Assembly (NCBI GenBank): GCA_037501455.1
Contig: CM074855.1
Location: 51,777,001 to 51,841,000 of the forward strand
Reading direction: 5' to 3'
DNA: 64,000 nucleotides
Source: Lantana camara
Lineage: Eukaryota > Streptophyta > Magnoliopsida > Lamiales > Verbenaceae
Shown: piece by piece, positions 4,034 through 54,480 of the stretch
Numbering within the stretch: the stretch's first letter is position 1
Layout of the letters: each line of letters opens with the position of its first letter
Position numbers and translations under genes: made by a program
The notes under the pieces: model-generated
What the model was told of the DNA's origin: nothing
Seen by the model: the letters and a program-made list of their open reading frames with translations, nothing else
Databases searched by the model: none

Positions 4034-4270
4034 TAGAGAGTTGTTGAGATCTCTCTATTTACGTGTTAGGGAGATGTGGGATTCTCCCTATTTATGTGAT
4101 AGAAAGATGCTGGATTCTTTCTAAATTATGTGAGCAAGAGATGCTGGATTCTCTTGGAGTTAGATGTTTGAGAGATGCTGGATTCTCTCGAATCTAGGGT
4201 TTGAGAAATGCTGGATTTTCTCAAACATGGATGTTTGGAAGATGTGGAAGTCTGCCAGACCTAGGTTGAG

Positions 4271-4447
4271 TGTAATATCCCACATCGGATTGGAGGGTGG
4301 ATTGAAGCTGCTTTATAAGTAGTGGAGTTCCCCTCCCCTGAGTAGAGGCCTTTTGGGCCACTGGGGTAACCAGTGGTTCGAAACGTAAAACCGTGGGGCT
4401 TGGACCAAAGCGGACAATATCGAAGGGCGGGTCTTAGGACTGTTACT
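4271..4447 (+). repeat. TRIM left LTR
   Basis: 177 bp direct repeat, starting TGTAATATCC and ending GTTACT, with the TSD TTGAG immediately before it. Confidence 0.9.
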
Positions 4448-4451
4448 GTAA

Positions 4452-4464
4452 TGGTATCAGAGCC
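4452..4464 (+). other. TRIM primer-binding site
   Basis: TGGTATCAGAGCC lies four bases after the left LTR. It is complementary to the 3' end of initiator-Met tRNA. Confidence 0.9.
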
Positions 4465-4518
4465 AGGGCCCGGGTTCGGTGTGCCAGCGAGGACGCTGGG
4501 CCCCTATGGGGGGGTGGA

Positions 4519-4695
4519 TGTAATATCCCACATCGGATTGGAGGGTGGATTGAAGCTGCTTTATAAGTAGTGGAGTTCCCCTCCCCTGAGTAGAGGCCTT
4601 TTGGGCCACTGGGGTAACCAGTGGTTCGAAACGTAAAACCGTGCGGCTTGGACCAAAGCGGACAATATCGAAGGGCGGGTCTTAGGACTGTTACT
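4519..4695 (+). repeat. TRIM right LTR
   Basis: 177 bp, one mismatch to the left LTR, preceded by a run of seven G within a purine-rich stretch and followed by the TSD TTGAG at 4696-4700. Confidence 0.9.
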
Positions 4696-5109
4696 TTGAG
4701 AGACGGGGCTCTCTCGATTACGTGGTTGAGAGACGGGGTTCTCTCAATTCTGTGCCTGAGAGACGGGGTTCTCTCCTTTGATGTGCTGGGAGACGGGGTT
4801 CTCTCTTTCTTATGTGCTGAGAGATGTGATTCTCTCTTGTTTGTCGCGGCTGAGTTACGTGTGGCCTGTTGTTGGGTTGCAATCGACGAGGAAGCGACGG
4901 TATCGAGCTTTGGGTGCAGTGGCCTAGTGGGGGATCGAACGAGTTTGAAGCGACCAACGATCAAGTATTTGCACAAACCTCTGTGACTACGGAACTCTGC
5001 AGGGAGTTGATGCAATCAGTGAGAGTAAACTTCTCAGTCAGGGCTGACTCTACATGATCTCAGGAGATGGATTGAAGTATTCCAGCTCGAAGATTTACGA
5101 CTCAGTGGT

Positions 5110-5146
5110 AGGACCTGAGGACAGGTCCTTTTGAAGGAGGGGAGAT
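5110..5146 (+). promoter_or_regulatory. G1 pre-PPT hairpin and polypurine tract
   Basis: AGGACCTG (5110-5117) pairs perfectly with CAGGTCCT (5122-5129) across the loop AGGA. The purine-rich tract GAAGGAGGGGAGA (5133-5145) follows and abuts the 3' LTR. The tract is the expected primer for plus-strand DNA synthesis. The hairpin recurs before the PPT of G2, G6 and the Tekay element. Confidence 0.85.
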
Positions 5147-5444
5147 TGTGACACCACGTTCGTCCGACGTATAAGGTACGCCGCGTTCCAACCTTTTAAT
5201 GTGTTTAATTATGTGATTTTATATTTTTCGTGGCCCTATTTTGAACTCTTTTAGAGTTTAGGGGCCCCTTTGTAATTTTCTCCTTTAAGGGGTTTTTCCG
5301 TCATTTCTCGTTCGGTCGAGATTTTGACCTCTTTGACCCCTTCAACGCGTCCGGGGCTGCGAAACGAGTCCGTAAACTCTAAGTTTGCCCCATTCTGACT
5401 TCGTTAGCGCGTTCGTTCGATCGTTTTTGCGTACGAGGACCCGA

Positions 5445-5513
5445 GATATATACCCCGAATCCTCGTAATTCGTGCCAAAAAGATCAGACCTCAGCTCTCT
5501 CTCTCTCTCTCTC
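5445..5513 (+). promoter_or_regulatory. Predicted G1 LTR promoter (TATA and CT-rich start region)
   Basis: GATATATA (5445-5452) lies between inverted arms CGAGGA (5434-5439) and TCCTCG (5460-5465). About 45 bases downstream is a (CT)n tract (5495-5513), typical of plant 5' leaders. The solo LTR has the same arrangement in reverse with TTTATA at the TATA position. Transcription start is inferred. Confidence 0.55.
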
Positions 5514-5639
5514 GCGACATCAGCCTTTGGTCACTATTCACGCAGTTGAGGGGTAAAAACACACACAAGCTCGTTCTTGCTCGTTTCTCGATGGAATTCG
5601 ACTTGTGAATAACGAAAATTTATCAGCTCGACGAGCCCG

Positions 5640-6600
5640 TCACGATGATACCAAAATCATGGCCTGAAAACCAGCGGAGGCGGCGCTATGGCGAGTTGCA
5701 GGCGGCGGCAGTGGTGCCGCGAGCTTCAGCCCTGTCTCGCGGCGGTTTACGGCGGTGCTTTCGGCCGAAATTTGGCCAGGCCTGGAGCGGATTTTCCCGA
5801 CGGGTCCATTCCCGTTGGTGGCGCAGCAAATGGGGCGGCGACGGAGCCTCACGCGCGGCCTGAAAGTGGCGCACGGCGGCGGCGTTACTGTAGCAGCGGC
5901 GTTACTGTAGCAGCGGCGAACTCGCCATTCCGGCGAGTTTTTCAGACGACCCTTGGTACTACCCCACCTTTTTCGACCTCCTGAGTTCGATTCCGGTGTC
6001 GGTTTGAGCAAACGATGGCCGTAGGTGGCGGTTTGGGGCAACGCAGCGGTGACGGGATATCGGTCGCGGTTTTGGACCTTTTCCGACAGTCTTTTGGCGA
6101 TGGTTTCTTCAGAGAAATTGTTCCTCACGTCAAGTCCGAGCCATTCGTGGTGGTGGCGGCCCAAGAACCGGCCGGCGGCGGCGAACCGGTGGCGGACCGG
6201 GGCTGGACCGGCGGACCGGTTTTCCGGTGATTTTTCGGGGGTTTGGCTATGGGGCTTTCGTAGGGCTCGTTACAAGCTTTCCAGCGGTATGTCCGGATTT
6301 TATTTTCGTTTAGCGGTTTGTGTTTAATTTCAGTTTTCGTCGTTGGAATTTAGTTCGGTTTTCCGTCAACGAAGTCCCGTGTGTTTGGTATTTTCTGAAA
6401 TTGATTGAGGGCTATTGTCTAGTAGGCCGAGGCGCTTGTTTCTGTCCTTCCGGGGATTTTTCCGACCACCGGAGGCGGTGTTCCGGTGGCGGCCGGTGGC
6501 TGTTCGGCCGGCCACGGTGGTGGCTTTCCGGCGACTTTCGGACAGTAGGTTCCTTTCGTCGTGGTGAGTTCAACGCCACTTCCCGTTCGTCAATCGGATG
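5640..6600 (+). repeat. GC-rich GGC/CCG-biased block in the G1 LTR
   Basis: This block is rich in GGC and CCGG words inside otherwise AT-rich DNA. A 17-base unit (CGGCGTTACTGTAGCAG) is directly duplicated around 5880-5915. Overlapping open frames occur on both strands, as expected of GC-rich DNA with few stop words. The solo LTR carries a diverged counterpart at about 39010-39970. I regard it as non-coding LTR sequence. Confidence 0.6.
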
Positions 6601-7151
6601 TCCGGTTGATTTTATATGAATTTTTGAAGCTATTGTATTTTATTCGTTAATTGATTTTAATTGTGCAATTTGATCCCGTATGTGCTATAAATTGAAATTA
6701 TGAGTTGTATGATACGAGGAAGTATGCTATGATGTATGAATATTTGATTCTTGATTTATCGAATTTAGTTGTCTAGTTTTACGCCATCTATTTGAGAATA
6801 ATTATTGTTTGAAGGGGTGTTAGTGTAATTTTGGAAACTAAATTGATTATGAAATTTTATAAAACATAAGAAATGAATTATGAAAAGATACGTTGTATTT
6901 AATTTGAATAAATTGATCAAGTATGCCAATGTGTAATTTGTATATAAATTGTTATGTAATTCATGTTAATTTCGTGAGACTTGGTGCATGATATGATTTG
7001 AATTCTTAATGTCCTACTTTATTTTATGTAATTAATGTTATGAATTTTATAAGTTATGCATCTTTTGATATGGAATATGAATTATAATATGCTCTGAATG
7101 ACTTGATTGAATAGATATGGATTATATGTTGCATCATTTGTATTCGTGAGC

Positions 7152-8343
7152 ATGGCCGTGCGTCTTTGTGGTTGTGTTTGGAGTCTGAGTGTTGTGTTCT
7201 GTGTGTGTTCAGTAGTTCAGGGGTTTTCCAGGGAGTGTCTGTCAGCTGTTTGGGTTCCAGTGGGACTTCTTGGCTTGGGTTTTCCGTTTCGTCGGTGAAA
7301 GGTGAGGTTTTAGGATTTCTGTTTTAGTTACAGCGACCTACAACCCTCTGTGCTCGTTTTCAAGCCTGCATGCGATTATTCTGTTATATTTATATAATAG
7401 ATATGTGTTTATATGATATGTTTATGAATTTGTCATACGATTAAAGGTTTTTGAACTGTATATGTACGAGCATATGTAAGCTTGAAATGTTTTGCAACGA
7501 GGCTATGCTCCAAACCGTGTGTCTTCATACCAGCTGCGGATTAGGATGACACGGAGAGGTACGTTTATAGCATATGCTAAGTTGCAAGGTATGGTATGCT
7601 CCGATAAGGTATGTACGTATGATTTTGATATGATATGATAAGTTTGTTATGTAGCGAGTTATGATTTGTTCGGATATGTTCTGTTATGTTGGGCCCCGGT
7701 GACTGTGGGTAAGGAACCCCGGGACGGTATCGGGCCGTCGGGTTAAGCCTGTGCATAGTCTCCATTTGAGGTATCTCGTGCGACTCAGGGAGATAGGGGA
7801 GGCGAGATATTCTTGAGCCGGTAGCGTAAAACCTGCCGAGGACTCGTAGGGGATCATTACCCCTCGAGGTATGTATATGATATGGATGGTTAGGGGCGTA
7901 TACACCCCTTCCATCACCCGGAGTTGAGGATGTTATGTTATGATGTTTTCTGTTTTGATATTATGATTTGGAAGTAAGGTTGGAGACCCGTACTCGCCGG
8001 GTATATGAATATGATAAGTTATGTTGATTATGAAACGGGATAGGAGCTTTCTCTTCCAATATGTTACGAGTTTGTTCAGTCTGATATGATTTGATTAAGT
8101 ATAAAAATTTGGTATGAGTATGCTCAGTTTGTTTAGTTTTGAATAAGATAAGATAAGATATGTATAAGTTTGATTTGAAAAGATATGTATAAGTATGTTT
8201 TGTAAATGGTTTTGGTATGCAAAACCCTAGTCCCGGTTCATAATCTTTCTTTTGATACGTGCTCTGCTCCTTATTATGTATAGTGTGTGTGAGTTCAGCC
8301 CCCTCGCTCAGTCCCCTCGCCCCACCTATGTTTTAGTTTGCAG
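7152..8343 (+). other. G1 LTR conserved splice-like module
   Basis: The block starts with GCCGTGCGTC followed by a GAGTCTGAG word. A GAAAG/GTGAGG donor-like site lies at 7302 and a TTTGCAG/GTACAAG acceptor-like site at 8342-8343, followed by GAGCTAGGCGG. The same order and words occur in the LTRs of G2, G3, the Tekay element and the fragment at 58576-59900. Splicing is inferred from sequence only. Confidence 0.45.
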
Positions 8344-8776
8344 GTACAAGTTGTTGGAGTTCGAGCTAGGCGGCTTTGAGTCGGGTCTGTCGAGTCTGTG
8401 TCTGTCCGTTGATTTTGTTAATTACTTTGTTCCGATTTATGTATGAAAATTATGTATATAATATGTTCTGTACCAGTTGATGTTTATGCTTTGATCATAT
8501 GAATTTTCGGGACAGATTAGGACAGGTTCGTGGAATTAGTTGAACCCGTTTATTTATGTTCGTGATTAAAGTTTTTGTTAGTTCATATTTTGTATCGCTT
8601 CCGCATTCAGGTTTTGTACATTTTACTTGTACAGGGTTAGGTACCGCCTAGCTAGTGTGTGTGCTTTTGTTTGTCACCCGTTCGCTGTGACTTGGTGCGT
8701 GTGCGGACTTTTCATTTCGTACCACGTGTCGGGTCTTAGTGCGGGGGTGTGGTGCCGCACCGCTTGGGGTGCTACA

Positions 8777-10403: not shown

Positions 10404-10583
10404 ACTGTAGAGAATCATAGAACTACAACCTAGATGCTAAGCAGAGAAAAATGTGAGCATGCTGAATTATAACGATATGCAAAAGTTAAGGTCTTTAATC
10501 TAATGTAGCTCCCACTGTTTTTCAAAGATCTAAGAGGAACGCGTTTCCCAATGGGTACTAAGATCCTAAGCATTTTACCTCGA

Positions 10584-12535: not shown

Positions 12536-12548
12536 GGCTCTGATACCA
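12536..12548 (-). other. Copia A primer-binding site
   Basis: Reverse complement TGGTATCAGAGCC lies two bases inside the LTR boundary (LTR ends CCAACA on the minus strand). It is complementary to initiator-Met tRNA. Confidence 0.9.
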
Positions 12549-19500: not shown

Positions 19501-22500
19501 TGTAACGCCCCAGTTTTTAGGTAGTACAGCATGACGTTTGTGTTTACCAAATTGCGCGTGATAATTATTTATACGTTTTTTATATATTTTAATTTTATTT
19601 TAAATATATTAAATGTTGATTACTTTATTTTAATGTTATTAATATCAAATATATTTATATATATATATATATATTAAGGCGGTATGAGTTGTTTATTAAC
19701 ATATTTGCATGAACTCATGAAATCCTTTTTAATTAATAATTATGCATGCATGTATTTATTATGCATTTGAATTTTTATATTATTTGGAAATATTATGAAT
19801 TTTATTGTTACATTGCGTATGAGTGACATTTACGTGCTTCATTTCTATTTAAATGGATACTGAAATTTCGTGTAAATTTAATATGTTGGACTTATACGTG
19901 TCTTGTATATGAATATATGTTCGTTTCGCATTTTCGGATTCAATTGCATGTGTTTCGAGTTTATTTTAATTTTGGAATCCAAGTCGGGGGCTAACGAGCA
20001 CTTAGCACACCCTTGGTTCCGTATTTAATATCTCGAGCTCGGGAACTCGGAATCGAGTTTCATCAACTTCGTTGAACTAGTATCAAAGATTCGGGTTTAA
20101 TAAACTTAGCCTTATATTTTTCCAAAGTCATTTGAACCTCCGAAATCCAACCGAAAAACGAAACGGCGACCAAACTGACCTTGTTGCACATAAATGGCCA
20201 TAACTCATTCATTTGTTGACCAAATTAACCATGGTTAGACTTTATAGAACCCTAAATCAAGCCTATAACCTGCCATAAACCCCCCAAACCGAACCAATCC
20301 TTCCCACTTGCTGAAAATTGACCAAACATCCTCTGCTTCCCAGTTTTTCCACTAGCTCAAGCGCTACCAAGAGATTCAAGCTCAAATCTTCTTCCAAACC
20401 TCCATTAATCCACAAGGTAAGCTTAGATATGTTATGTACATTCAATATGAGTCATTTTCATTTATTCATCCCTAATTTTGATCATTATTTCATGGATATA
20501 TGGCTGCCTTGAGTAGATCTTTAGGTTTTGAGCATTTTGGTTGATCTCTTTCAATTCTTGAGGTTTTTGTATGATTCCAAGCACGGAAATGATTGTTTTG
20601 ATCTCCTCTTTACATTTATGGTGATGTATTAGCTGTTAGTTGAGGCATTTATGAGCCACCATTAATGAGTTGTTGAAGCTTTGGCATGAAATGATCACCA
20701 TACACCCCACCTCACGTCTTGTTGGTTTGAGAGCATGGTTGCACGTTGGTTTGGAGTTATTTTGCTGCATACTTGTGATTAATTGATGGCTGAAAGTGTT
20801 GGGAAGGTTGTGCCTTAGTTGTGCTTTGTTTTGTTGTTGCTCTGTTTTTCTGCTGCGTACTTTAAACACGGGCGTGTCAACTTTTTCTTTTTCAGCATGA
20901 CACGGGGGTACACGACTGTCTGGTCTTGCTGTACCGAGACACGGGGGTGTCCCGGTTTGCTTTATAATGGTGAAACGGGCGTGTCACCTTCTGAACTTCA
21001 TGCATATTGTTATTGCATGCTGCTGTACGTGCATGTGTTATAAATATATACATATATATATATATATACATTATAATATAATATATGTAGGTATATTTAA
21101 TTATATATTTTTATATGTTTATTAAATAATAAATGTTATTTGATTTAATTGAATGTGTTTAATTGTTTATGTTCTAATTGTAAATGTGATTTAATACGTG
21201 CTATGCTCCTATTTGAGTTATTTGATTAATTGGATTGAAAATGTGGAATTATGAATCCGAATGAAAGTGAACGAATGAATGAATGACTTCATTATATGAT
21301 TTAAATTCCTTAATAGTGCACATGAACATTTTCACGACATAATGTCATCTTTTAACATTCATATCATGATCTTTGCATTGTCGAGCGTCTTATATGGTCA
21401 TATTGAGTTTCACTTCACCTTTATTGCACAGATTTTGATTCCGTTGGAGATGATGCCGGTCCGTGAGGCTCGTGTGTTCTCCTTTTTGCCGTTTAAGGTG
21501 GGTTTCTCTTCTAATTAGATAAATGACCCTATATACCTTCAATATGAAAAGCTTTCGACCAAAAATGAATATATATATATATATAGAGTCGTTTTGAAGA
21601 TTAAATGTTTTCAACGTAAAGCCTTATTTTATGAATCCTACCTAATGTTTTGGCGAGAAATGAATGAATGAATGCACTGAATGGGGCCCAGGGACTTGGT
21701 GTGAGTTGTGACCCAAGGAGGCAAGGGCTGGCGGTGATCCCTCATACTAGTCCCACTAATGAACGGCATAACCGAACCTCGCTAGGAGTGAGCAAGGAAT
21801 GGACGCTGAGTGTCATCTGGGGAGTCATGTTCCCCTTTTGGTCAATGAATGGGTGGATGGGCCTTGCAAACCCGCCACCAACCCGGAAGAAGAAGGTGTA
21901 AATGTTATTGAATGCGCACGAAAGAATGATATGCATGAAAAGAAAGAATGAATGAATGTTAATGAATTACACGAGGTGTTGGTTGGAGATAATGCACGCC
22001 CACTCGCCGGGCCACTATTGACCTAATGTAAATGAATCATTATAATCCCTTTTGACGATTTCTATTCACCTACTTGGGAAATTCTTTAAAAACCTCACTT
22101 GGGATTATAGCTTGCATGTGATTGTTAAATACCGTCGTATATTATATTTGTACCCTGTTTTATACCAACCAGTCCCTTTTGGACTGAACCCGTTTGGCTT
22201 TCAGTTCTGTTGTGCAGGTGCCAAGGGAGCTAGGCGGGATTTCGAGTCATAGGTCTTGCATTCGCTTTTAGCCCTTGTATTTTGGTCTAACACTCACATA
22301 TTGCACTTTTGATCATTGTATATGAACTTTATTGGAGCGTACTTGTTTTGAGTCTTGATGGCATTTGAGGGTGTATATGACTGAAAATTGGAACTGTGAT
22401 GCTCATTGCATATATACATGATGTATGTTCGTTTATTGCTTCTGCAAATGTATTTACTCAGATTTTATGGTTTTAAAGGTTAGCACGCCTAGCATAGCGT

Positions 22501-22609
22501 GTGTGTGTGTCCCCGTTCGCCGGGACTTAGCTCGGGTATGGATCGTCAATTTCATATTCGGGTTGGGTCTCGGTGCGGGGGATGTGGTACTTTGCGCTCG
22601 GGTGTTACA
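19501..22609 (+). repeat. G3 5' LTR (3109 bp)
   Basis: It begins TGTAACGCCCC and ends GTGTTACA. It contains a cluster of GACACG-GG-CGTGTC-type palindromes (20866-20990) and donor-like CAAG/GTAAGC at 20417. Further right are a GTCGAGCGTC block near 21379, an acceptor-like CACAG at 21430-21431, donor-like AAG/GTGGG at 21498 and an acceptor-like GTGCAG at 22216-22217. AT repeats occur near 21045-21070 and 21570-21586. Confidence 0.9.
20866..20990 (+). repeat. Palindrome cluster in G3 5' LTR
   Basis: Four related inverted repeats include ACACGGGCGTGT (20866-20877), GACACGGGGGTGTC (20938-20951) and GTGAAACGGGCGTGTCAC near 20970-20987. The 3' LTR copy of the last is a perfect 8 bp arm pair (27211-27228). 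The cluster sits upstream of the conserved GTCGAGCGTC block. Confidence 0.8.
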
Positions 22610-22617
22610 TCCTTAAG

Positions 22618-22630
22618 TGGTATCAGAGCC
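22618..22630 (+). other. G3 primer-binding site
   Basis: TGGTATCAGAGCC lies eight bases after the LTR end and is complementary to initiator-Met tRNA. Confidence 0.92.
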
Positions 22631-25474
22631 TCGGGTTGCAAAACTCGGGTTCTCGTGTCGTGTGGATCTGTCTAGGTCGTTCGGCTTAGGAACTACGTGA
22701 CAATGTGTGCATTGCATTGATCTTGAATATGTATTGCTTTCCTTTTTGAATTACGTTGAATTATTTGTTGTATTTTACATTGGATTAGTGCCTTTCATGT
22801 TGAATACGTGCCATGAGCATGCACTAATAGAATGCATATATCCTTGAAATAAGTTATGAATTACAGGTTATGAAGATACTATTAAAACACGGCCAAGTAT
22901 CATGCTAACAACGCCTTATTGCAAGTTCTTACTGAGACGTGGAGGATAGGAATGATGCATAGGGGAAAGATATAGAGAATTCGAGAGGCGTGGTCCTCAT
23001 AGATAGAGCTAGAGTTCAAGGGATAGGAGCTGAATTGGAAGTTCGACTTAAGATATGTAACTATAGAGGGACATTTGTAAATATAGGAATTGATCGGGAA
23101 ATATTTATGACTCCGAAGATTGACATATGCAGCTCTCTTACATAAGAAGCCATAATTGGACTCAACGGGGTCATTCAAATTAAGGAATGGAGAGATAGCG
23201 AGAATTGTGAAGATTCAAGCTAAAATACGTTCAGCGGTAGTTATGCATCAAGAGTCGTAAAAATGAGAATGTCTAACTGAACCTAATGGATAGAAAAGAG
23301 GTCAAGGTCGGGAAGAAGTGAGTCTGGGAGCCCTAAATTTCAACTAAGATGGGAAAACGAGTCAGGAAGGGATTGGAAGGAGCCAAGTAGCGTGGAAAAT
23401 ACAATTTCATGGAAGGTGATAATTCTACAAGCAAGATTTGAGTTCGTTTTCCCAATCCAAGCTAAATTGTCGTGTTGTGAGGGTGAATTGGGAAACATAG
23501 AGCAACGAATGGAAACGATAAAGAAAGGCAAAGACGTTTTGGAAGGAAAGCATGCACGCAAGTGGGAGCAATTGGAAAGCAAGTTCTATTCCCAATCTAA
23601 ACTCGTAAAGGATAAACAAGGGAATCTTGATCCGGGTGACCACTCGAAGTAGGATTCGGAAACACAGTCAGGGTGATTTTTTTTTTAGAGAGTTGATGCA
23701 CAAAGATTCATGGAAAACTTGAAGACCGTGGGAAAGACGAAGCATGATTAGCAAGTCAAAGTGACCTCATGATTGGAGGAACGAGGAAAAGCTATCGAGC
23801 TAACAACTTACCACATTAGTGCAGGTTCCAAAACATTCATAGCACGTGCATCATACTTCGCATCCATTATTTATTCTTCTTTACCTATGTTCGTGCGTGC
23901 ATTTTTTTTTTTATTGATTTCGTTGCTCTAATGTGCGGTATATTTGCTTATTGTAAATGTGACACATGCATTGACATCTTTACCCGACATGCATTTTAGT
24001 GTTTACTTCGTAGGAAGTTCTTTCACCTCACTTATCAAGTATCTCTGCGACGGGGCCACATCTGAGTTAAGAGGAAAAGAGAGAGTGGTATGGCACATGA
24101 TAAGGAAGATGATTTCAGAAATGAAGAACTTCATGTAAGAGTTAGGTCGGTGGAAAGGAACTCCGAAGGAAAGTAAGACTATATTTGCTTTCAGGGTGTT
24201 GGGATTGAATAAGAATAGAGAAGGGAGTTTCGATTACCAAGAGAATTGAAAAGGAAGATGAGATGATTGCGATGAAAGAAGGATCGATGGAGTTTAAAGT
24301 GTAATGATAAAAATTTAAGGGGCAGAGCATAACCAAGAGGCAAAATTGAAACTTGAAGTGGTGGCCGAAGAAATAATTAATAGAGATAACGGAAATACAT
24401 TTAAGGAAGTCCTAATGGTGGTGGTCAGAAATGAATAAGACGACCTTAAGGGTTGATCATTAAAATGAGAGCTAAGCCACTAAATTCGGGATGAAGGTTT
24501 TTATGGGGGATAGAAAAGGTAGCTCGTTAAATTTTTTTTTCTACGTATGTAAGTCGATTTGAAGATATAGGAGTTTTGAAGGAGTTAGAGAAACTCCTAA
24601 GTTACGATGTCAAGAGAGAATTGATTCAAGTTATCATAGAAAGGGATGCCGTCAATAAAGCTTGGTACAAAGAGTTCGGAAAGAGATTTTAGAAGCAACA
24701 AACCGGCAAGGATAAACATTTAGAAGATTTAAATCAAACTTCGAGAATCATCAAGAACATCCTTTCTCCGATTAGGGAATTGTAGGAGGCGAATACCAAA
24801 TATTCCCTTAAAGGTTTAAAGGGAGTGAGGAAAATTGAACGGAAGATAGGGAAAGATTGGGTGATATGTATTAAGGTCGGGCATAAACTTTTAAAGACGC
24901 CAAGGGAAGTTATCTTCATTGGTAGGTAGGTTTTGATACGGGAAAAGGAAATAACTATGGATCCCAATTTGGGATAGATGGATTAAGGGTATTCGGGGAG
25001 GTCAAGCTCGACTAAGTAAAAAGAGTTGATTGGTTGAAAGAAGATTATCAGAAATGATGAAAGATCGGAGAAGATTGGAAGCAGGACAAGTCAGAAGGGA
25101 ATAAAGAATAAAATCCTTAGAGGATCTATCAATTGCTTCGCTGGGGTACCCTGAAGAGCTTAAAGACAAGTCGAGTACTAAACTCACTTTCGGGACAGAT
25201 CATGCAGTGGACCCCAAAACTCACAGCTCTAAATTATGCAATTACGGTGAACGATACATGAAGCATCCATGATACATACATCCAGGCAAATTTAACTTAA
25301 ATAATTTTTATATTAGGTGCTTTGGTTCCTTATTATGTCAACTTACTTGGAGTAATTGATGATCAACGTGGATGATAGCTATGACCTGCTTTGGGTGTCT
25401 TAAGTGACTTTAATTATTGTTTTGCGTTGTGTTGCTCGGGAGTATTGGAGACTTCCTTGCTTTGTTGTTGTTTG
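22631..25474 (+). other. G3 internal region, no recognisable genes
   Basis: The leader carries the branch-like CACTAAT (about 22822-22828) and acceptor CAG (22864-22866), followed closely by ATG in the position of a gag start, but no gag follows. The longest short frame (23392-23652, 86 codons) encodes a charged peptide with a run resembling coiled coil (RMETIKKGKDVLEGK). G1 has a related stretch near 3195-3300, broken by a stop. I recognise no domain and do not call it a gene. Confidence 0.6.
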
Positions 25475-25692
25475 TAAGAGACGGGGATTCTCTTATTTTT
25501 GTTCGAGAGGCGGGGTACTCACTCTACTTGCGAGAGACGGGGCTCTATCATTGTTGTTCGAGAGACGGGGTTCTCTCATTGTTGTTCAAGAGACGGGATT
25601 CTCGTTGTTGCTTTTGAGAGATGGGGTTCTCTCATTGTTGTTGAGAGATGGGGATTCTCTCCTTGATGCTTGTAAGGAACAGGGTTCCTTCA
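25475..25692 (+). repeat. Tandem stem-loop array in G3 (about 8 units)
   Basis: Repeated hairpins with GAGAGA-type arms and CGGGGT-type loops include AAGAGA/TCTCTT at the left and GAGAGA/TCTCTC in the middle. The last is AAGGAAC/GTTCCTT (about 25674-25690), which keeps pairing while departing from the GAGAGA word. Two units (near 25503 and 25530) pair poorly. The array sits about 55 bases before the polypurine tract. Confidence 0.82.
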
Positions 25693-25734
25693 CTAATTGT
25701 TTTCAGACAGATAGTGAATCCGAGGACAGATCCT

Positions 25735-25750
25735 TTTAAGGGGGAGAGGT
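25735..25750 (+). promoter_or_regulatory. G3 polypurine tract
   Basis: AAGGGGGAGAGG precedes the 3' LTR start at 25751. The pre-PPT hairpin seen in G1 and G2 is recognisable in sequence here, but its arms no longer pair well. Confidence 0.8.
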
Positions 25751-27792
25751 TGTAACGCCCCAGTTTTTAGGTAGTACAGCATGACGTTTGTGTTTACCAA
25801 ATTGCGTCATAATTATTTATACGTGTTTTATATATTTTAATTTTATTTTAAATATATTAAATGTTGATTACTTTATTTTAATGTTCTTAATATCAAATAT
25901 ATTTATATATATATATTAACGTGGTATGAGTTGTTTATTAACATATTTGCATGAACTCATGCAATCCTTTTTAATTAATAATTATGCATCCATGTATTTA
26001 TTATGCATTTCAATTTTTATATTATTTGGAAATATTATGAATTTTATTGTTACATTCCGTATGAGTGACATTTACGTGCTTCGTTTCTATTTAAATGGAT
26101 ACCGAAATTTCGTACAAATTTAATATGTTGGACTTATACGTGTCTTGTATATGAATATATGCTCGTTTCGCATTTTCGGATTAAATTGCATGTGTTTTGA
26201 GTTTATTTTAATTTTGGAATCCAAGTCGGGGGCTAACGAGCACTTAGCGCACCATTGGTTCCACATTTAATATCTTGAGCTCAGGAACTCGGAATCGAGT
26301 TCCGTCAACTTCGTTGAACTCGTATCTAAGATTCGGGTTTAATAAACTTAGCCTTATATTTTTCCAAAGTCATTTGAACCTCCGAAATCCAACCGAAAAA
26401 TGAAGCGGCGACCTAACTGACCTTGTTGCACATAAATGGCCATAACTCATTCATTTGCTGACCAAATTAACCATGGTTAGTCTCTATAGAACCCTAACTC
26501 AACCCTCTAACTTGACATAAACCCCCAAACCGAACCAATCCTTCCCACTTGCTGAAAATTGGCCAAACATCTTCTGCTTCCCAGTTTTTCCACTAGCTCA
26601 AGCCCTACCAAGAGATTCAAGCTCAAATCTTCTTCCAAACCTCCATTAATCCACAAGTTAAGCTTAGATATGTTATGTACATTCAATATTAGTCATTTTC
26701 ATTCATTCATCCCTAATTTTGATCATTATTTCATGGATATATGGCTGCCTTGAGTAGATCTTTAGGTTTTGAGCATTTTGGTTGATCTTTTTCAATTCTT
26801 GAGGTTTTTGTATGATTCGAAGCATGAAAATGATTGTTTTGATCTCCTCTTTACATTTATGCTGATGTATTAGCTGTTAGTTGAGGTATTTATGAGCCAC
26901 CATTAATGAGTTGTTGAAGCTTTGGCATGAAATGATCACCATACACCCCACTTCACGTCTTGTTGATTTGAGAGCATGGTTGCACGTTGGTTTGGAGTTA
27001 TTTTGCTGCATACTTGTGATTAATTGATGGCTGAAAGTGTTGGGAAGGTTGTGCCTTAGTTGTGCTCTGTTTTGTTGTTGCTCTGTTTTTCTGCTGCGTA
27101 CTTTAAACACGGGCGTGTCAACTTTTTCTTTTTCAGCATGACACGGGGGTGCACGACTGTCTGGTCTTGCTGTACCGAGACACGGGGGTGTCCCGGTTTG
27201 CTTTATAATGGTGACACGGGCGTGTCACCTTCTGAACTTCATGCATATTGTTGTTGCATGATGTTGTACGTGCATGTGTTATACATATATATGTACATTA
27301 TAATATAATATATGTAGGTATTTTTAATTATATATTTATATATGTTTATTAAATAATAAATATTATTTGATTTAATTGAATGTGTTTAATTGTTTATGTT
27401 CTAATTGTAAATGTGATTTAATACGTGCTACGGTCCTATTTGAGTTCTTTGATTAATTGGATTGAAAATGTGGAATTATAAATCTGAATGAAAGTGAACG
27501 AATGAATGAATGACTTGATTATATGATTTAAATTCCTTAATAGTGCACATGAACATTTTCATGACATAATCTCATCTTTTAACATTCATATCATGATCTT
27601 TGCATTGCCGAGCGTGTTATATGGTCATATTGAGTCTCACTTAACCTTTATTGCGCAGATTTTGATTCCGTTGGAGACGAGGCCGGTTTGTGAGGCTCGT
27701 GTATTCTCCTTTTTGCCGTTTAAGGTGGGTTTCTCTTCTAATTAGATAAATGAGCCTATATACCTTCAATATGAAAAGCTTTCGACCAAAAA

Positions 27793-27845
<53 letters not shown>

Positions 27846-28868
27846 TCGTTTTAAAGAGTAAATGTTTTCAACGTAAAGCCTTATTTTATGAATCCTACCT
27901 AATGTTTTGGCGAGAAAAGAATGAATGAATGCACTGAATGGGGCCCAGGGACTTGGTGTGAGTGGTGACCCGAGGAGGCAAGGGCTGACGGTGATCCCTC
28001 ATACTAGTCCCACTAATGAACGGCATAACCGGACCTCGTTAGGAGTTAGCGAGGAATGGACGCTGAGTGTCATCTGGGGAGTCATGTTCCCCTTTTGGTC
28101 AATGAATGGGTGGATGGGTCTTGCAAACCCGCCACCAACCCGGAGGAAGAAGGTGTAAATGTTATTGAATGCGCACGAAAGAATGATATGCATGAAAAGA
28201 AAGAATGAATGAATGTTAATGAATTACACGAGGTGTTGGTTGGAGATAATGCATGCCCACTCGCCGGGCCACTAATGACCTAATGTAAATGAATCATTAT
28301 AATCCCTTTTGATGATTTCTATTCACCCACTTGGGAAATTCTTTAAAAACCTCACTTGGGATTATAGCTTGCATGTGATTGTTAAATACCGTCGTATATT
28401 ATATTTATGCCCTGTTTTATACCCACCAGTCCCTTTTGGACTGAACCCGTTTGGCTTTCAGTTGTGTTGTGCAGGTATCAAGGGAGATAGGCGGGATTTC
28501 GAGTCATAGGTCTTGCATTCGCTTTTAGCCCTTGTATTTTGGTCTTACACTCACATATTTCACTTTTGATCATTGTATATGAACTTTATTGGAGCGTACT
28601 TGTTTTGAGCCTTGATGGCATTTGCGGGTGTATATGACTTAAAGTTGGAACTGTGATGCTCATTGCATATATACATGATGTATGTTCGTTTAGTGCTTCC
28701 GCAAATGTATTTACTCGGCTTTTATGGTTTTAAGGGTTAGCCCGCCTAGCATAGCGTGTGTGTGTGTGTCCCCGTTCGCCGGGACTTAACTCGGGTATGG
28801 ATCGTCAATTTCATATTCGGGTCGGGTCTTGGTGCGGGGGATGTGGTACCTTGCGCTCGTGTGCTACA
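25751..28868 (+). repeat. G3 3' LTR (3118 bp)
   Basis: It matches 19501-22609 with scattered substitutions. It ends TGCTACA and is followed by the TSD ATTTC. Palindrome copies lie at about 27107-27228, including the perfect GTGACACG/CGTGTCAC pair. Confidence 0.92.
27796..27842. repeat. (AT)n microsatellite
   Basis: About 23 AT dinucleotides. The equivalent tract in the G3 5' LTR (about 21570-21586) is much shorter, so it expanded after insertion. Confidence 0.95.
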
Positions 28869-47079: not shown

Positions 47080-47922
47080 TGTAACACCCCGACTCACAGT
47101 CGGTACAGGTAAATTATGTGATTTAATAATATTTGCGTTTTGAATTAATTGTTTATGACTTATATGAATTATTTGAACTATATGAATTTATTTGAATTAG
47201 TGTTGCATGTGTTTTATTCGTTTTATTTTGAGTTGGCCTTATTTGAACCCGTAATTGTTGAATCGAACCAACTTGAACCGGAAACCTTGAACCGAACCCG
47301 TGAACCGAACCGGCTCAGCCTTAAAGGCTGAACCATTTTCCTTCTCTTTCATTTACGTTCAACAACAGCAACATCAAGCCAAGCAAGAGCCAAACCCTCA
47401 AGTTTGATCATCCAACTTTCCAAGCCGATATCTCTCCCGTTTCTTCGCCTTTTCTCGAACTTAGGTAGGTTTCGGAATCCTCTCGTCGTGCTTGTCGTTT
47501 CCATGGTTTAAATTCTGAGTTTGGAGTGAGTTTTGCATGCCTTTGCTCCCTACGTGAATAGTAAGGGTTTTGCTAAAAACTTGGATATGTGCTCGTTGCT
47601 TGAAGTGTTTGATCCCTAGCTTTATATATGAGTGGTATATGCTATATATGTTGCATTTATTGCATTTTATCCATGGTTGGTTGAGCATTTATGATTGAGC
47701 ACGAATTTGGCTTGAATTTTGCATTTATTTGATCATGCCATTTCATTCCGTTTTCTTGCATTATTTGAGTGTTTATATGTCAAGCATGAATTATATGTAT
47801 TGTGTGTGCATTTTGGGAGGTTGTGGCAACTCTTAGGGATGAATTTTTGGCCATTTTTGGCTCTTAAATGAGCTCCCCTGTTTCTGTAAGAAAATTTTCT
47901 GTTTCAGACTTCGAACCAGGCC

Positions 47923-48044
47923 GGAACGGCCGTTCCCGCCCAGTTTTAAAACTGGGAACGACCGTTCCCATGCCCGGTACTGTTCATCCCGAGAGTGGGA
48001 ACGACCGTTCCCCGTTTGTACTGGGAACGGGAACGGTCGTTCCC
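47923..48044 (+). repeat. Palindrome cluster in Tekay LTR
   Basis: GGAACGGCCGTTCC (47923-47936), GGGAACGACCGTTCCC (47954-47969 and 47997-48012) and GGGAACGGTCGTTCCC (48029-48044), plus the palindrome CAGTTTTAAAACTG (47941-47954). The 3' LTR has the same cluster at 55260-55381. Confidence 0.88.
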
Positions 48045-48070
48045 AGGGCCGGAACCCCTCCTTCTGGATC

Positions 48071-48192
48071 AAATCCGCGATCGTGGATTTTTCCTTAAGG
48101 AAAAATCCGCGAGGGTGGATTTGAGGCAGTAGCTTGGGAAAAATCCATGGGGGTGGATTTTTCCCTTTGGAAAAATCCGCTAGGGTGGATTT
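48071..48192 (+). repeat. Four AAATCC/GGATTT hairpins in Tekay LTR
   Basis: Units of exactly 20 bases (AAATCC, eight loop bases, GGATTT) lie at 48071-48090, 48103-48122, 48141-48160 and 48173-48192. Loops vary while arms are invariant. Short TTTTCC...GGAAAA inverted repeats lie between them. A second copy of the set is at 55408-55529. Confidence 0.85.
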
Positions 48193-49727
48193 TGCCCTTT
48201 CTTCTCTTTGCTTTACTTATGCATTTGTATGATTTTAAAAGCTTTTCTTTTGCATATTAATTGTATAATTTGATTGTTTTGCATAATTAAATTGTAATTA
48301 AGCATGTGTGATATGATTTTGTGAATTTTATGAATTAATTGTGACATTTTATCTTGAATATGAACCATGCATTTTGCCGAGCGTCCTATTTGGTTCATAT
48401 AGAGTCTAAGTCTTGGGCTTTCGTGTTTTCTTTTCAGAGGAGGTTCCAGTTGACGAGCCCGAGGCGTAGGTTCACGTCTGCTCATTTTTTTGATCACGCA
48501 CAAGGTGAGGTTTAGGATTTTATTAGCTAAGCGACCTAAAGCCTTATGTGGTGTTTTCAAGCCGTGCATGTGACTATATATTATATATATAGATATGTAT
48601 GTGTTGATTAGAATATGATTATGATCTTGTGAACAACTTTGCTTTGGGAAAAGATATTAAGTAAGCCTATGTAAGCTATGTTTTGGAAAAGCTTTACGTT
48701 TCTGTTAGCGAGATCGCCATGAAAGATTTGGCATGTGCTATGATATGATTTGTATGTGTGGATCCAAGGAGCTACGGGTAAGGAACCCTCGGGACGGTTC
48801 GGGCCGTCGAGGTTCGGCCTGTGCGTAGTCTCCATCCGATATATCACACGCGACCCCTGGGAGTTTGGGAAGGTGTGATATTTCGATGCCTTCGGCGTAA
48901 AAACCGGGGAGGGCACGATGTGGGTTCGCTACCCCTCGTGAGTCTGTATATGTATGGATGGTTAGGGCCGCCGGTGGCTCTTCCATCACTGGTGTTGAGG
49001 AGTATGTATGATTTCTGTTTTGTTTGTTCTGAGGAGTAAAGGTTGGAAGCTCGTTCTCGCCGAGCATTATGTTTGTTGTGTATGTTTGAGAAGTATGAAT
49101 CGGGATAGTGTTTATAAAAGGTTCTAAAGTATATGTATTTGTTTTGGAAAGTTATAGCTTGTAAAACCTATTCCGGTTCATAGTTTCGCCTTTGCTTTGT
49201 GCTCTGCTCTATATATATGTAGGGTGTGGGTGTGCGTTAGCCCCCTCACTCAGTCAGTTGACTGACTCCTCGTTTACTCTTTTAGTTGCAGGTTTTGGGA
49301 GCGTGAGCTAGGCGGAGAAGTGTGTCTGCTTTATGCACTTGTCAGTCTAGGTCTCGTTAGGTGCATTTACCTTCTTGCACTTTATTATTTTGTAGTTATG
49401 CAGCTATGATTTGTATATACCTACTGATTATTTTGTTCGAGCCGGGATGGCTTTTGTAAGTGATGCGTTGGTACTTATATGTAAATACTATATGGATAGG
49501 TGTGAGTTGGTACCTACGTATATATATATGATGATTCTGTTTATGGTTTTATTTATTGCTTCCGCGCACTCTGTTTCGTTGTTGGTTTAGCTCCGCCTAG
49601 CCTAGTGTGTGTGTTTGGTCTCCCGTTCGCTATGATTCGGATTCGGGTGCGGACATTCCATTTCGTATTCGGGTTCGGATTATGGTGCGGGGGATGTGGC
49701 CCTACGTGTGGGTGCTACATCCTTAAG

Positions 49728-49739
49728 TGGTATCAGAGC
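49728..49739 (+). other. Tekay element primer-binding site
   Basis: TGGTATCAGAGC, eight bases after the LTR, is complementary to initiator-Met tRNA. Confidence 0.93.
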
Positions 49740-49935
49740 GCGGTTGCAAAACCGGGCTCTAGTGTCGTGTGGGTCTGTCTAGGTCGTACGGCTTAGGACA
49801 ACGTGATTGTGTGATTATGTGCATCTATGATTTGAATGTGTGATTACTTGATTATTTGATTATTTTCTTAAATTGTATACATATTCATACACTAATGTAC
49901 ATGCATCCATATTGCTTGAATTTGTGAATTTCAGG

Positions 49936-52900
49936 ATGCCTCCAAGAAGACATAACAACCGTGAACAAACTCCTGATTTGAATGAACCGGCTCTACATAA
50001 CGCACCTCCGCCACCACCTATGAACGCGGAGAATGTTGTCCAAGCCCTACTCAATCAACTCCAACAAAATCAAAGGGGTAATGCAAATCTGGGTGAAGGA
50101 CAAGATATTTCAGCTGTATATCGGGACTTCCGGAACAACAACCCTCCAAAGTGGTATGGAGGGGATGATATTAGGGCGGAAGAGTGGTTGTCGGAGATCC
50201 GAGGTATTTGGGAGATATGTCCGGGAACTTCTCAGGACAAGGCTATTTGCACTGGGCGAATTATTCAAGGGCCAGCGGCTATTTGGCTACGGAGTGTGAG
50301 GTCCAAGTTGGAGAGGATGGGTATGGAATTTAACTGGGAGACGTTCGTGCAGGAATTCCATGAGAAATACATCCCTCATAGTGCACAAGAACGTCGCCTC
50401 CAAGAGTTCACTAATTTGAGGCAAGGCAATCGGACGGTGGAGGATTATTTATTGGAATTTGAGAGGCTAGCACCTTATGCTACTCACATCACCGACCATG
50501 ATGATCATAAGGCCCGAGCTTTTCTTCATGGACTTCGCCGGGATATTCAAGAAGCTTTACAAGCGGCGAATGTGAGTACCTGGGCCAAGGTTACCAAGAG
50601 GGCAATCCAAGTTGAGGCCCAAATGGCTCGGTTGAAGCCTCCGCCTTTCTCTTCTACACGGGTTGCAGGATCCGGTTCTGGATTGGGTAAGAGGCCCATT
50701 TCTTTTGCTCCACGAGCTCCTGTCCCACCGGCTTTTCGTCCCCAAGGTTTAGGGAACAAGAAGCCCCGTATTACCGGTCCCGTAGCACCTCCTGTTGCTC
50801 CAGTTCGACCGGCTCCAGCTCAGGGACCACCCGTTTGTTCACATTGTCAGGGGAGACACCCAGTGGAGCGGTGTTGGAGACTTCAGGGCAAATGCTTTGT
50901 GTGTGGGTCCTCTGATCACTTGGTGAATGCTTGCCCGAATAAGAGGCCGGTTGTGCAGGCACGTGTATATGCTTTGGACGGAGAGGAGGAAGCTGCTGAT
51001 GTCGACCCAAACGCCGTGATAGAAGGTACAATCAACATTCATGGCATATCACTACATGCATTGTTTGATCCCGGGGCTACGCATTCATTTATTTCCCGGG
51101 ATATTGTTGCTTCTTTGCCTTTACTTGATGATTTATCTGCGCATGTGTATGTGGTGAATACTCCTTTGGGAGGATCTGTGGAAGCGGACAGGGTGTTTAG
51201 GGAGTGTCCGGTGGTGTTTGAGGGCCGAGTTTTTCCTGCAGATCTGATAGTTCTACCGTTGAAGAAGTATGGGGTTATTCTTGGTATGGATTTTCTCTTC
51301 AGATACCGAGCTCAGTTGGATTGTCGTGAGAAGAAGGTTTCGTTGGGGTCAGTGGTCTTTACGGGTGAGAGGTTGAAGTCTAGCCCGTTTGTGTCTTTTA
51401 TGGAAGCAAGTAAGCTCCTCCGGGACGGCGCGACAGGTTTTGTGGCCTATCTTTTGAATAAACCGAAGGATCAGGCCAAACTTGAGGAGACAGAGGTCGT
51501 GAGCGAGTTTCCCGATGTATTCCCTGAGAATTTGGGTTCTTTGCCACCCGATAGGGACATCGAGTTTGTAGTCGACCTTTATCCTGGAGCTGAGCCTTCC
51601 TCTAAGACACCGTATCGGATGGCTCCTGCGGAGTTGAAGGAGTTGAAAACTCAGCTGGATGAGCTTTTGACTTGCGGTTACATCCGTCCGAGTACATCCC
51701 CGTGGGGTGCTCCTGTGTTATTTGTGAAGAAGAAGGATGGGACTTTGAGGATGTGTATAGATTACCGCGAGTTGAACCGGATGACAGTGAAGAATAAGTA
51801 TCCTTTACCTCACATCGAAGAGTTGTTTGACATCTTGCAAGGGTCGCAGGTGTACTCTAAGTTAGATTTGAGGCAAGGGTATTACCAACTTCGTATCCGG
51901 GAAGAGGATATCTCTAAGACTGCGTTTAATACCCGTTATGGACACTTCGAGTTTGTAGTGATGCCGTTTGGGTTAACTAACGCTCCAGCCGTGTTCATGG
52001 ATATGATGCACCGAGTGTTCAGACAGTATCTTGACAAGTTTGTGGTCATTTTCATAGACGACATCTTGGTGTATTCTAAGTCTGCGGAAGAGCACGCGTC
52101 TCACCTCAGGATCGTTTTGGAGACACTTAGAGAGCACAAGCTTTATGCTAAGTTTAGCAAGTGTGAGTTCTGGCTCGACAAAGTGTCTTTTCTGGGTCAT
52201 ATTATTTCAGGTAAGGGAATTGAAGTTGATCCTTCTAAGATTGAGACCGTGGTTCAGTGGGAAAGACCGAAGAATGCCTCCGAGATAAGAAGTTTTCTCG
52301 GGTTAGCGGGTTACTATAGGAGATTTGTAAAGGATTTCTCCAAGATTGCCTGCCCGTTGACTCGATTAACTAAGAAGGAGGTGAAGTATGAGTGGGATGA
52401 TGGGTGCGAGAGAAGTTTCCAAGCTTTGAAGGAAAAATTAACTTCAGCACCAGTTCTTACCCTACCCGAGGGATCCGAGGGCTATTCAGTTTTTGCAGAT
52501 GCTTCTAAGGAAGGACTCGGATGTGTATTGATGCAGAATGGCCGAGTGGTGGCCTATGCTTCTAGGAAGTTGAAGGAACACGAGAAGAACTACCCCACTC
52601 ATGATCTTGAGCTTGCAGCGGTTGTATTTGCTTTGAGGAAGTGGCGTCATTACCTCTATGGGACAACTTTCGAGATATTCACGGATCATAAGAGCCTCAA
52701 GTATCTTTTCACTCAGAAGGAATTGAATAACAGACAGAGGCGTTGGATGGAATTCTTAGAGGATTATGACTGCACGATTCAGTATCATCCAGGCAAGGCT
52801 AATGTCGTAGCAGATGCTTTGAGCAGGAAAGCAAGTGTTTCCGGTTTGAGTACAGAGTCTTCAGGACAGGGTTCGACAGTTTTGGTTTCAGTGGCTCGAT

Positions 52901-54480
52901 TAGCTAACATCTCAGTTCAGCCGGATTTGAAACAGAGGTTATTGGATTCTCAGGCTTCGGATGCAGAGATTCAGAGACTAGTGGTTCGGTCTAGGATAGA
53001 CCCCGAGACGAAGTTTGGGTTTGATGATTCCGGTTTGTTCAGGTTCAAGACCAGGGTTTGTGTCCCAGAAGACCTCAAGAGGTTAATACTTGAGGAAGGA
53101 CATCGTTCTGGATATTCCATTCACCCCGGTGGTACGAAGATGTACCGAGATTTGAAGGAATACTTCTGGTGGAATGGCATGAAGAGAGATGTCGCGAACT
53201 TTGTGAAGCGGTGTCTCACGTGCCAAGTGGTGAAGGCAGAACACCAGAAACCGGGAGGAACCCTCCAACCACTTCCGATTCCTGAATGGAAGTGGGAGCA
53301 AGTGACTATGGACTTCGTGTCCGGCTTGCCAAGATCAAGAGGAGGTTATGATGGAATTTGGGTGATAGTCGACCGATTGACCAAGTCTGCTCATTTTCTC
53401 AAGGTGAAGATGTCTTACAAGACTCCGAAGTTGGCCGAATTGTATTGTAATGAGATTGTGAGACTTCATGGGGCGCCTGCCAGCATTGTCTCAGATCGTG
53501 ATCCGAGGTTCACAGCTAAGTTTTGGCAGGATCTTCAGAGTAGGTTGGGTACAAGGCTTAATTTTAGCACCGCTTTTCATCCTCAGACAGATGGACAATC
53601 AGAGAGACTGATTAAGTATTTGGAGGATTTGTTGAGGGCGTGTGCTTTGGATTTCCAGGAGAAATGGGATAAGCATTTAGCTCTGGTTGAGTTTGCCTAT
53701 AACAACAGTTTTCAGACTTCTATTGGTATGGCTCCGTATGAGGCACTTTATGGAAGGAAGTGTAGATCGCCTCTATTTTGGGATATGGAAGATTGGCGGT
53801 GGACCGAGGAGAATAAGCTCGAAAGAGCTACACCTCGAGAGAGATTGGATAAGACCACTGCCAAGGTTAAGTTGATCCAGCAGAGAATGAAGGCAGCTCA
53901 GGACCGTCAGAAGAGCTATGCGGATAAGAGGAGAAGGCCCCTTGAGTTTGAAGTCGGAGATAAGGTGTTCTTGAAAGCATCTCCGAGGAAGGGATTTTCT
54001 CGAATAGGTCGAGGTGGGAAACTTAACCCGAGATACCTTGGACCTTTTGAAATCCTTGAGAGAGTTGGAGAAGTGGCGTATAGGTTGGACCTACCGCCGA
54101 GATTGACCGGGATACATAATGTGTTTCATGTTTCGCAGCTCAGGAAATTTTATCCCGAGGAATCAACTATACTCCCTGTGGAAGAGGTACAACTTGAGTC
54201 GGATTTGACGATAGTAAGACATCCGGTTGAGATTCAAGACCGGAAGATACAAGTGTTGAGGAATAAACAGATTCCCTTGGTCCGAGTTCTTTGGAGAGAT
54301 CAGAAATCTGAAGAGTCTACTTGGGAGACTGAGGAGAAGATGAGACAGTTGTACCCAGAGTTGTTCTCAGGTCAGACAGTTAACCTGGGGACCAGGTTCT
54401 CTGAAGGGGGGGAGGTTGTAACACCCCGACTCACAGTCGGTACAGGTAAATTATGTGATTTAATAATATTTGCGTTTTGA
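49936..54480 (+). CDS. Gag-Pol polyprotein of Tekay-type Ty3/Gypsy element
   Basis: A single 1514-codon frame. I chose the ATG at 49936 (MPPRRHNN) over the upstream one because it directly follows TTTCAGG, the context shared by the other gag genes here. Order: Gag; two zinc knuckles ([13 protein letters not shown] from residue 301, [14 protein letters not shown] from 320); protease ([11 protein letters not shown]378); reverse transcriptase (FIDD 706-709); RNase H (FADAS, D855); integrase with H1056, H1063, C1093, C1096 and a D1126, D1187, E1223 triad (D-35-E). A GPF-type module (about 1368) and a C-terminal chromodomain-like region (about 1420-1480) follow. The chromodomain would direct integration to particular chromatin. 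The frame runs through the polypurine tract into the 3' LTR. No stop or frameshift is visible, so it is probably functional and a possible helper for non-autonomous neighbours. Confidence 0.96.
54382..54416 (+). promoter_or_regulatory. Tekay pre-PPT hairpin and polypurine tract
   Basis: AACCTGG (54382-54388) pairs with CCAGGTT (54392-54398) around GGA; GAAGGGGGGGAGG then precedes the LTR at 54417. Both are inside the last codons of gag-pol, so the structure is kept within coding sequence. Confidence 0.88.

Follow-up and report, generated by a model that had tools for sequence, protein, structure and literature searches.

Tandem hairpin rows precede the polypurine tract in three pol-less long terminal repeat retrotransposons of Lantana camara

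A 64,000-nt stretch of the Lantana camara genome (contig CM074855.1, positions 51,777,001 to 51,841,000; hereafter the window) contains plant long terminal repeat (LTR) retrotransposons nested in one another. Analysis of this window confirmed that three of these elements, G1, G3, and G6, all of which lack pol, carry a row of tandem hairpins before the polypurine tract. The stem words differ between hairpins with pairing usually kept, and the way in which the two arms covary suggests that the rows are probably hairpins selected in the sense-strand RNA. All results below come from these three arrays and from comparison with an intact relative in the same window, the Tekay-like element (Tekay being the label used in a preliminary description of the stretch). 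Coordinates are collected in Table 1.

Table 1. Positions of the hairpin arrays and associated features in the window
Feature	Position	Strand	Remarks
G1 array, first part	4034..4260	+	Units 1-7, class A; stems 7-10 bp, differing words
Nested TRIM	4271..4695 (425 bases)	+	Inside G1 unit 8; outside the array proper
G1 array, second part	4696..4836	+	Units 8-12, loops mostly CGGGGT; stems 6-10 bp
G1 single hairpin GGACCTG-AGGA-CAGGTCC	5111..5128	+	Directly before polypurine tract
G1 3' LTR	5147..8776 (3630 bases)	+	From self-comparison of the window
G3 element	19501..28868	+	LTRs 19501-22609 and 25751-28868; target site duplication ATTTC
G3 array	25475..25692	+	8 class B-like units, 3/8 broken
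Intact Tekay-like element	47080..57056	+	LTRs 47080-49719 and 54417-57056, 99.9%
gag-pol open reading frame of intact Tekay-like element	49873-54480	+	Single open reading frame
G6 gag open reading frame	60099..60932	+	277 amino acids; Pfam Retrotrans_gag, Ty3_capsid; upstream of array
G6 array	61498..61904	+	13 units, class A before class B, order as in G1

A listing of individual units confirmed the array positions given in the preliminary description, with 33 units (12 in G1, 8 in G3, and 13 in G6) placed by eye in one register. The range of 8-12 hairpins per array proposed there fits G1 and G3 but is exceeded by G6, and the G1 row, described as running from 4034 to 4836, is split by a 425-base terminal-repeat retrotransposon in miniature (TRIM) with the target site duplication (TSD) TTGAG. 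The loops fall into class A (mostly TGCTGGAT) and class B (mostly CGGGGT). Two loop classes in a fixed order, as first described, were found in G1 and G6, where class A comes before class B, but G3 has only class B, with AAGGAA/TTCCTT as its last unit. Stem words vary across units (TAGAAAGA, CAAGAGA, AAGGAA), and at least six contiguous standard pairs adjoin the loop in 11 of 12 units in G1, 5 of 8 in G3, and 10 of 13 in G6, a total of 26/33 units. Unit 7 of G1 has an A-G mismatch in its stem, and G6 unit 4 fails the common register and is paired over 8 bp in another. The last hairpin is 310 (G1), 60 (G3), and 274 (G6) bases from the 3' LTR. Tandem Repeats Finder gave periods of 33 and 34 for G1 class A and 28 for G3; the tandem repeat follows the coding region and precedes the 3' LTR. 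A protein-coding tandem repeat was considered and rejected, since the periods of 33, 34, and 28 are not all divisible by three. An antisense open reading frame (ORF) of 190 amino acids (4443-5015, minus strand) spans the G1 class B part and part of the TRIM; its ERTPSL-like repeated word follows from the 30-base period.

A tandem repeat of a single hairpin would pair everywhere for free, so each arm was compared with its own partner and with the arms of other units. Across the 33 units, own arms formed 204 Watson-Crick pairs, compared with 163.9 (standard deviation 5.7) when arms were permuted, and none of 10,000 permutations reached as many. The count was equaled in 0 of 10,000 permutations for class A (13 units) and 6 of 10,000 for class B (17 units), three units falling in neither grouping, and in 0 of 20,000 when only the 26 distinct stems were used. 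Per unit, own arms shared 6.92 (G1), 6.00 (G6), and 5.38 (G3) Watson-Crick pairs of a possible 8, against 5.00-5.27, 4.90-5.25, and 4.00-5.20, respectively, for neighbor-offset controls. Fixed alignments were made for 26 of the 33 units, omitting seven with other loop lengths, so that class A comprised 12 units with 8-base loops. In this alignment 93.8% of class A cells were paired, compared with 81.6% after shuffling (0/500 shuffles as high); double changes were present in 6 of 8 pairs (6/500) and occupied 15 cells (3.9 when shuffled). The class A covariation score was 0.492, compared with 0.267 for shuffled alignments (0/500) and 0.095-0.214 for slid partners.

Wobble pairs point to the strand on which the structure forms. 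The class A alignment contains nine G-U cells and no A-C cells, its six unpaired cells being one G-G, one T-T, one T-C, and three A-G. The 13-unit class A grouping gives G-U to A-C as 12 to 2, with both A-C pairs in the ill-fitting G6 unit 4, and class B gives 7 to 5. Sense-strand RNA is favored because the G-U pairs are stable there and would be A-C in the opposite strand.

The array is also the longest stretch that can still be aligned between G1 and G6, in unit order and with 82-84% identity; their other alignable internal pieces are of 36 and 65 bases. Identity between the arrays of G1 and G3 is 77%, and these two elements additionally share the leader, 199 bases at 68%, and two short internal pieces. 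In a whole-window comparison, the final ~130 bases of the 5' LTR plus the leader matched at 70% between them (1670-1901 with 22486-22718). At E 0.01, blastn found no match between the G1 3' LTR and either the G3 3' LTR or the 1821 in-window bases of the G6 3' LTR. Between G1 and G6, stems and loops are identical at 197/225 positions and spacers at 90/128 (p = 1.1e-4, with G1 unit 7, missed by the stem rule, counted as spacer). When the 83 pairs defined on G1 stems were read in G6, 62 were the same, 9 had a one-sided change that kept pairing and 2 a one-sided change that broke it, 2 had a double change that kept pairing, none had a double change that broke it, and 8 fell in gaps. The three copies differ in age and condition. 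G1 is a young insertion, with one difference in 1801 bases of its LTR pair (the 5' LTR ends at 1801 and starts beyond the window edge); G3 is the oldest, with LTRs 94.4% identical. The TGGTATCAGAGC primer binding site (PBS) after the 5' LTR is kept in G1 and G3 and missing in G6, which is a damaged copy. At 59895-59920 in G6, the PBS and the first part of the leader are gone directly after the 5' LTR, and G2, another element of the window, has lost a comparable stretch near 16940. Six contiguous pairs are lacking in 1/12 units of G1, 3/8 of G3, and 3/13 of G6, a pattern that fits selection before insertion and decay afterwards. The preliminary description had named broken pairing in recently inserted copies as evidence against selection; pairing in the young G1 is kept in all units but one.

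Scans of the window set the arrays apart from their surroundings. We searched for places where five or more purine-arm hairpins cluster, using 60 dinucleotide shuffles of the plus strand in 500-base blocks as a control. Three clusters were found on the plus strand (~4069-4227, 4697-4843, and 61502-61756) and none in the 60 shuffles; the single minus-strand cluster is the G1 array seen from the opposite strand. G3 lies below the five-hairpin cut and yielded 4 units in a looser scan, which additionally picked up clusters of 3 units in each LTR of the intact element. Both strands were scanned with covariance models for classes A and B, filters off, and below E = 0.1 these matched only G1, G3, and G6 (including two minus-strand images of G1); most of the within-array matches arise by construction, because the models were built from 26 array units. 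The best matches outside the arrays (E = 0.12) were to a hairpin in both G3 LTRs. Rfam gave no match at gathering score anywhere in the window. Compared with dinucleotide shuffles, predicted fold energy was low in the first part of the G1 array (z -5.86) and in G6 (z -5.92). Separately, family-specific palindrome or hairpin rows (GGAACGGCCGTTCC, GGGAAAAATCCATGGGGGTGGATTTTTCCC, GACACGGGGGTGTC, CTAACGGCCGTTAG) occur in the LTRs of various elements, among them the intact one, at 47919-48200 (also 55256-55537), 63350-63510, 20866-20990, 27113-27230, and 40930-41060 (minus strand); the row in the G3 5' LTR was not found under a stricter rule.

Neither the hairpin scan nor the covariance models found an array in the internal region of the intact element, in agreement with the preliminary description. 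Similarity between G6 and the intact element ends at 51066 and restarts at 54181, which indicates that the array occupies the place of ~3.1 kb holding most of protease, reverse transcriptase, RNase H, and the integrase zinc-binding domain. The proposal that the array replaces pol thus describes G6, but in G1 and G3 gag has gone too, and their interiors have no sense-strand ORF of 180 amino acids. Pieces matching the intact element remain in G6 (61114-61376, 62016-62078, and 62142-62178), G3 (22606-22739 and 25697-25759), and G1 (1803-1883 and 2072-2131). A weak Pfam Chromo match in the intact element (E 0.0002, 21.6 bits, under the curated cut-off of 25.1) speaks for this relative of the array elements being a putative chromovirus. 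A further, single hairpin at the polypurine tract was compared across six element ends (5111-5128, 19250-19267, 25716-25733, 54382-54398, 62141-62159, and 42271-42290 on the minus strand). It reads GGACCTG-AGGA-CAGGTCC in G1 and G2, AACCTGG-GGA-CCAGGTT in the intact element, and GAACCTGG-GAA-CCAGGTTC in G6. Families differ here by a double change from G-C to A-T; the hairpin has one mismatch in the minus-strand element G5 and two A-C mismatches in G3. This hairpin is common to the array elements and the intact element; the array has no counterpart inside the latter.

If a protein or an RNA recognized hairpins by their loops, stems would be expected to be interchangeable and loops constant, as they are here. 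Selection would act on the folded RNA of the array, and the G-bearing loops on replaceable stems may be the contact points of a binding partner. The most likely partner would be the nucleocapsid part of a helper Gag, reading the loops via its zinc knuckles (the intact element has two zinc-knuckle motifs). In this way a pol-less element could be captured into helper particles that carry reverse transcriptase, and a row of many weak sites could give the parasite high avidity. By analogy with known systems, we tentatively put forward Gag binding and packaging as the purpose of the array. Packaging is our first choice because a pol-less element needs capture by a helper, because the retrotransposon BARE2 and mouse mammary tumor virus (MMTV) offer precedents, and because zinc knuckles are a candidate reader; another cis role is the next choice. 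As a whole, the interpretation that we favor, still at less than even confidence, is a selected cis-acting RNA element, located in the 3' untranslated portion of full-length transcripts from a pol-less lineage resembling large retrotransposon derivatives (LARDs), with packaging as its possible task. A bolder version, in which a multi-site array for RNA capture took the place of the enzyme genes and competes for helper Gag through interchangeable stems and constant loops, seems rather unlikely. Differences among the stem words might serve to keep units from mispairing with one another, although the predicted folds give no sign of success in this.

Several results weigh against selected hairpins or against packaging as their role. 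The evidence base is three arrays from one window, and the unit registers were set by eye, which favors pairing. In the class B alignment 83.0% of cells were paired compared with 81.2% when shuffled (109/500), double changes occurred in 3 of 8 pairs and 5 cells (2.9 when shuffled; 59/500), and the covariation score was 0.107 compared with 0.073 (13/500). With outer pairs only, arm permutations did as well in 2343 of 10,000 cases for class B and 3536 of 10,000 for G3. Covariation is thus strong in class A and weak in class B, and the case rests on class A, where the number of further pair types was itself unremarkable (116/500). Read in the reverse direction, the 83 pairs defined on G6 stems were the same in G1 for 58, kept by a one-sided change for 11 and broken by one for 5, with 2 double changes kept, 1 double change broken, and 6 gaps. 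One-sided changes from Watson-Crick pairs kept pairing in 6 of 8 cases (p = 0.14 against an expectation of 1/2 and 0.02 against 1/3). The G-U to A-C ratio falls to 20 to 8 over all placed units, 11 to 4 in G6, and 5 to 4 in G3, and offset arm pairs of G1 and G6 already contain 150 G-U and 99 A-C, so that the chance of 9 to 0 is ~0.01. Fold energies were unremarkable for the second part of the G1 array (z -1.05) and for G3 (z +0.37). With spans of at most 30 bases, a core-pair probability of at least 0.7 (mean of six) was predicted for 19/33 units (7/7 in the first and 2/5 in the second part of G1, 4/8 in G3, and 6/13 in G6); with unlimited span this dropped to 8/33 (3, 1, 0, and 4 in the same order). 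Unconstrained folding often prefers pairing between units, and by duplex energy the own 3' arm was unbeaten within its array for only 16/33 units. Since equilibrium folding favors pairing between units, the hairpin row would need to form during transcription or with protein. The G6 zinc-knuckle motifs, at 61146 and 61203, lie past the stop of its gag ORF. The 3' position of the array also counts against packaging: Ty1 packaging sequences are placed within 580 nt of the 5' end, and Ty3 packaging is said to depend on untranslated regions or POL sequences (PMC4974528). The selected structure proposed in the preliminary description is partly supported: the pairing of the young G1 array and arm covariation beyond permutation speak for it, and class B and the mixed z-scores qualify it.

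The arrays could instead be neutral, hypervariable tandem repeats, in which an inverted-repeat unit was multiplied by abnormal strand transfer during reverse transcription and template switching inside the hairpin copied one arm onto the other. The differing unit numbers (12, 8, and 13) and the near identity of class B to a plain repeat of one hairpin agree with such an origin, which we consider rather improbable. Arm copying yields perfect stems, yet class A has nine G-U and no A-C cells, so that arm copying is unlikely to be the sole cause. A hypervariable repeat should also change fastest, yet the array is what aligns over the greatest length between G1 and G6, with unit order and loops kept and with stems and loops better preserved than spacers. 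Recent movement of the array by template switching between co-packaged RNAs would make its similarity no sign of selection, and the array is indeed among the few alignable internal pieces; however, recent transfer predicts spacers as similar as stems, and 90/128 spacer positions were identical against 136/152 stem positions. Array exchange also leaves the covariation between units unexplained, and we regard it as a slight prospect.

A selected RNA array might instead do another job, such as nuclear export of unspliced RNA, stability, or shaping of the 3' region for plus-strand priming, and we give this no more than a minor share of the probability. The closeness of the last hairpin to the 3' LTR suits such roles, as does the additional hairpin with its between-family double change at the polypurine tract, and retroviral export elements of the Mason-Pfizer monkey virus type are likewise located before the 3' LTR. 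The polypurine-tract hairpin is nevertheless present in the intact element, which has no array, so priming seems not to need the array. Many units have GAGAGA and TCTCTC arms, and plants have GAGA-binding proteins, which could bind spaced inverted GAGA/TCTC motifs at the DNA level; we hold this to be very improbable, given that stem words such as TAGAAAGA, CAAGAGA, and AAGGAA vary with pairing kept and that class A wobble is strand biased. A role as small-RNA precursor seems doubtful, since Dicer would probably require stems longer than the 6-12 bp present. Loop-loop kissing within RNA of the same element was also considered, and plus-strand occurrences of the loop complements formed no pattern: the class A loop complement ATCCAGCA occurs twice, at 46434 and 53875, AACCCCGT twice, at 31462 and 60174, and ACCCCG 14 times.

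The preliminary description knew of no named element of this type. Judging from the literature searched, this may apply to the covarying hairpin row, but LARDs and the 3' repeats of Tat, Ogre, and Retand retrotransposons are close counterparts of the elements and of the position of the array. Non-autonomous and already named, LARDs have a non-coding core said to specify well-conserved RNA structures (PMC7215508). G1 and G3 resemble LARDs of the Sukkula type in their long LTRs (3.6 and 3.1 kb), in their short internal region without typical ORFs, and in retaining the PBS; G6, by contrast, still carries a gag ORF and has no PBS, and the LARD passages seen describe no hairpin row in which stems vary and loops stay constant. 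The LARD trait is RNA structure conserved across many copies and species, compared with three copies here. In Tat, Ogre, and Retand elements, the 3' LTR is commonly preceded by tandem repeats (PMC7004042, PMC11963269), and the array resembles them in its tandem layout, its variable unit number, and its place after the coding region and ahead of the 3' LTR. The differences are that the unit here is a covarying hairpin and that the array elements have a chromovirus-like relative. In the text of these two papers that was available, "hairpin" does not occur, and in that of the Retand paper "stem-loop" does not occur and "palindrom-" occurs twice. BARE2 is unable to make Gag and is packaged into BARE1 particles (PMC3735527, in the part seen). 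It would resemble the array elements as a parasite in the particles of a related helper, packaging here being an analogy; it differs in belonging to the Copia superfamily, and that part does not portray its packaging and dimerization signals as a row of hairpins. MMTV Gag binding needs the looped purines of a stem-loop (PMC8096270, likewise in part), and G-bearing loops on stems are comparable as possible Gag contacts; the source sections name two MMTV Gag-binding sites (one stem-loop and the PBS), as opposed to 8-13 putative units near the 3' end here. Among the matches listed in a literature search of open-licence papers, as far as their text was available, there was no report of a hairpin row in LTR retrotransposons. 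Searches for relatives covered viral contigs and prokaryote genomes, in which absence of copies says little: three array patterns had no match in viral contigs, where no relative of the G6 gag or of a reverse transcriptase piece of the intact element was confirmed, and one pattern had no match in prokaryote genome contigs. For the G6 gag, a protein search gave no match at E 0.001 among 347 candidates.

Other features of the window are as follows. The TRIM has LTRs at 4271-4447 and 4519-4695 (177 bases each, 99.4% identity) and TSD copies at 4266-4270 and 4696-4700, and its 5' LTR is followed by TGGTATCAGAGC. A GGTTCGAAAC motif in the TRIM LTR resembles a pol III B box; ARAGORN found no tRNA and Rfam no match in 4271-4695. 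Large copies at 10292-14806 and 42306-46617 (minus strand) lie in opposite orientation ~27 kb apart and are 79-91% alike piecewise. By eye, the G6 3' LTR has a TATA box and then a splice-donor-like site, CAAG/GTAAG (62680-62845), the G6 gag ATG is preceded by an acceptor-like TTTCAG (60085-60099), and GTATGT donor-like sites are present in other LTRs. From these motifs, an intron across much of the G6 LTR is possible.

To our knowledge, little is known about how plant non-autonomous LTR retrotransposons enter helper particles. If the array is a capture signal, it would provide a compact sequence with which to address this process and would help to mark out parasitic lineages. A neutral array would mean that reverse transcription is able to build covariation without selection, a warning for RNA structure inference based on covariation. 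If it is selected, RNA structure may help these parasites to get copied by a helper element.
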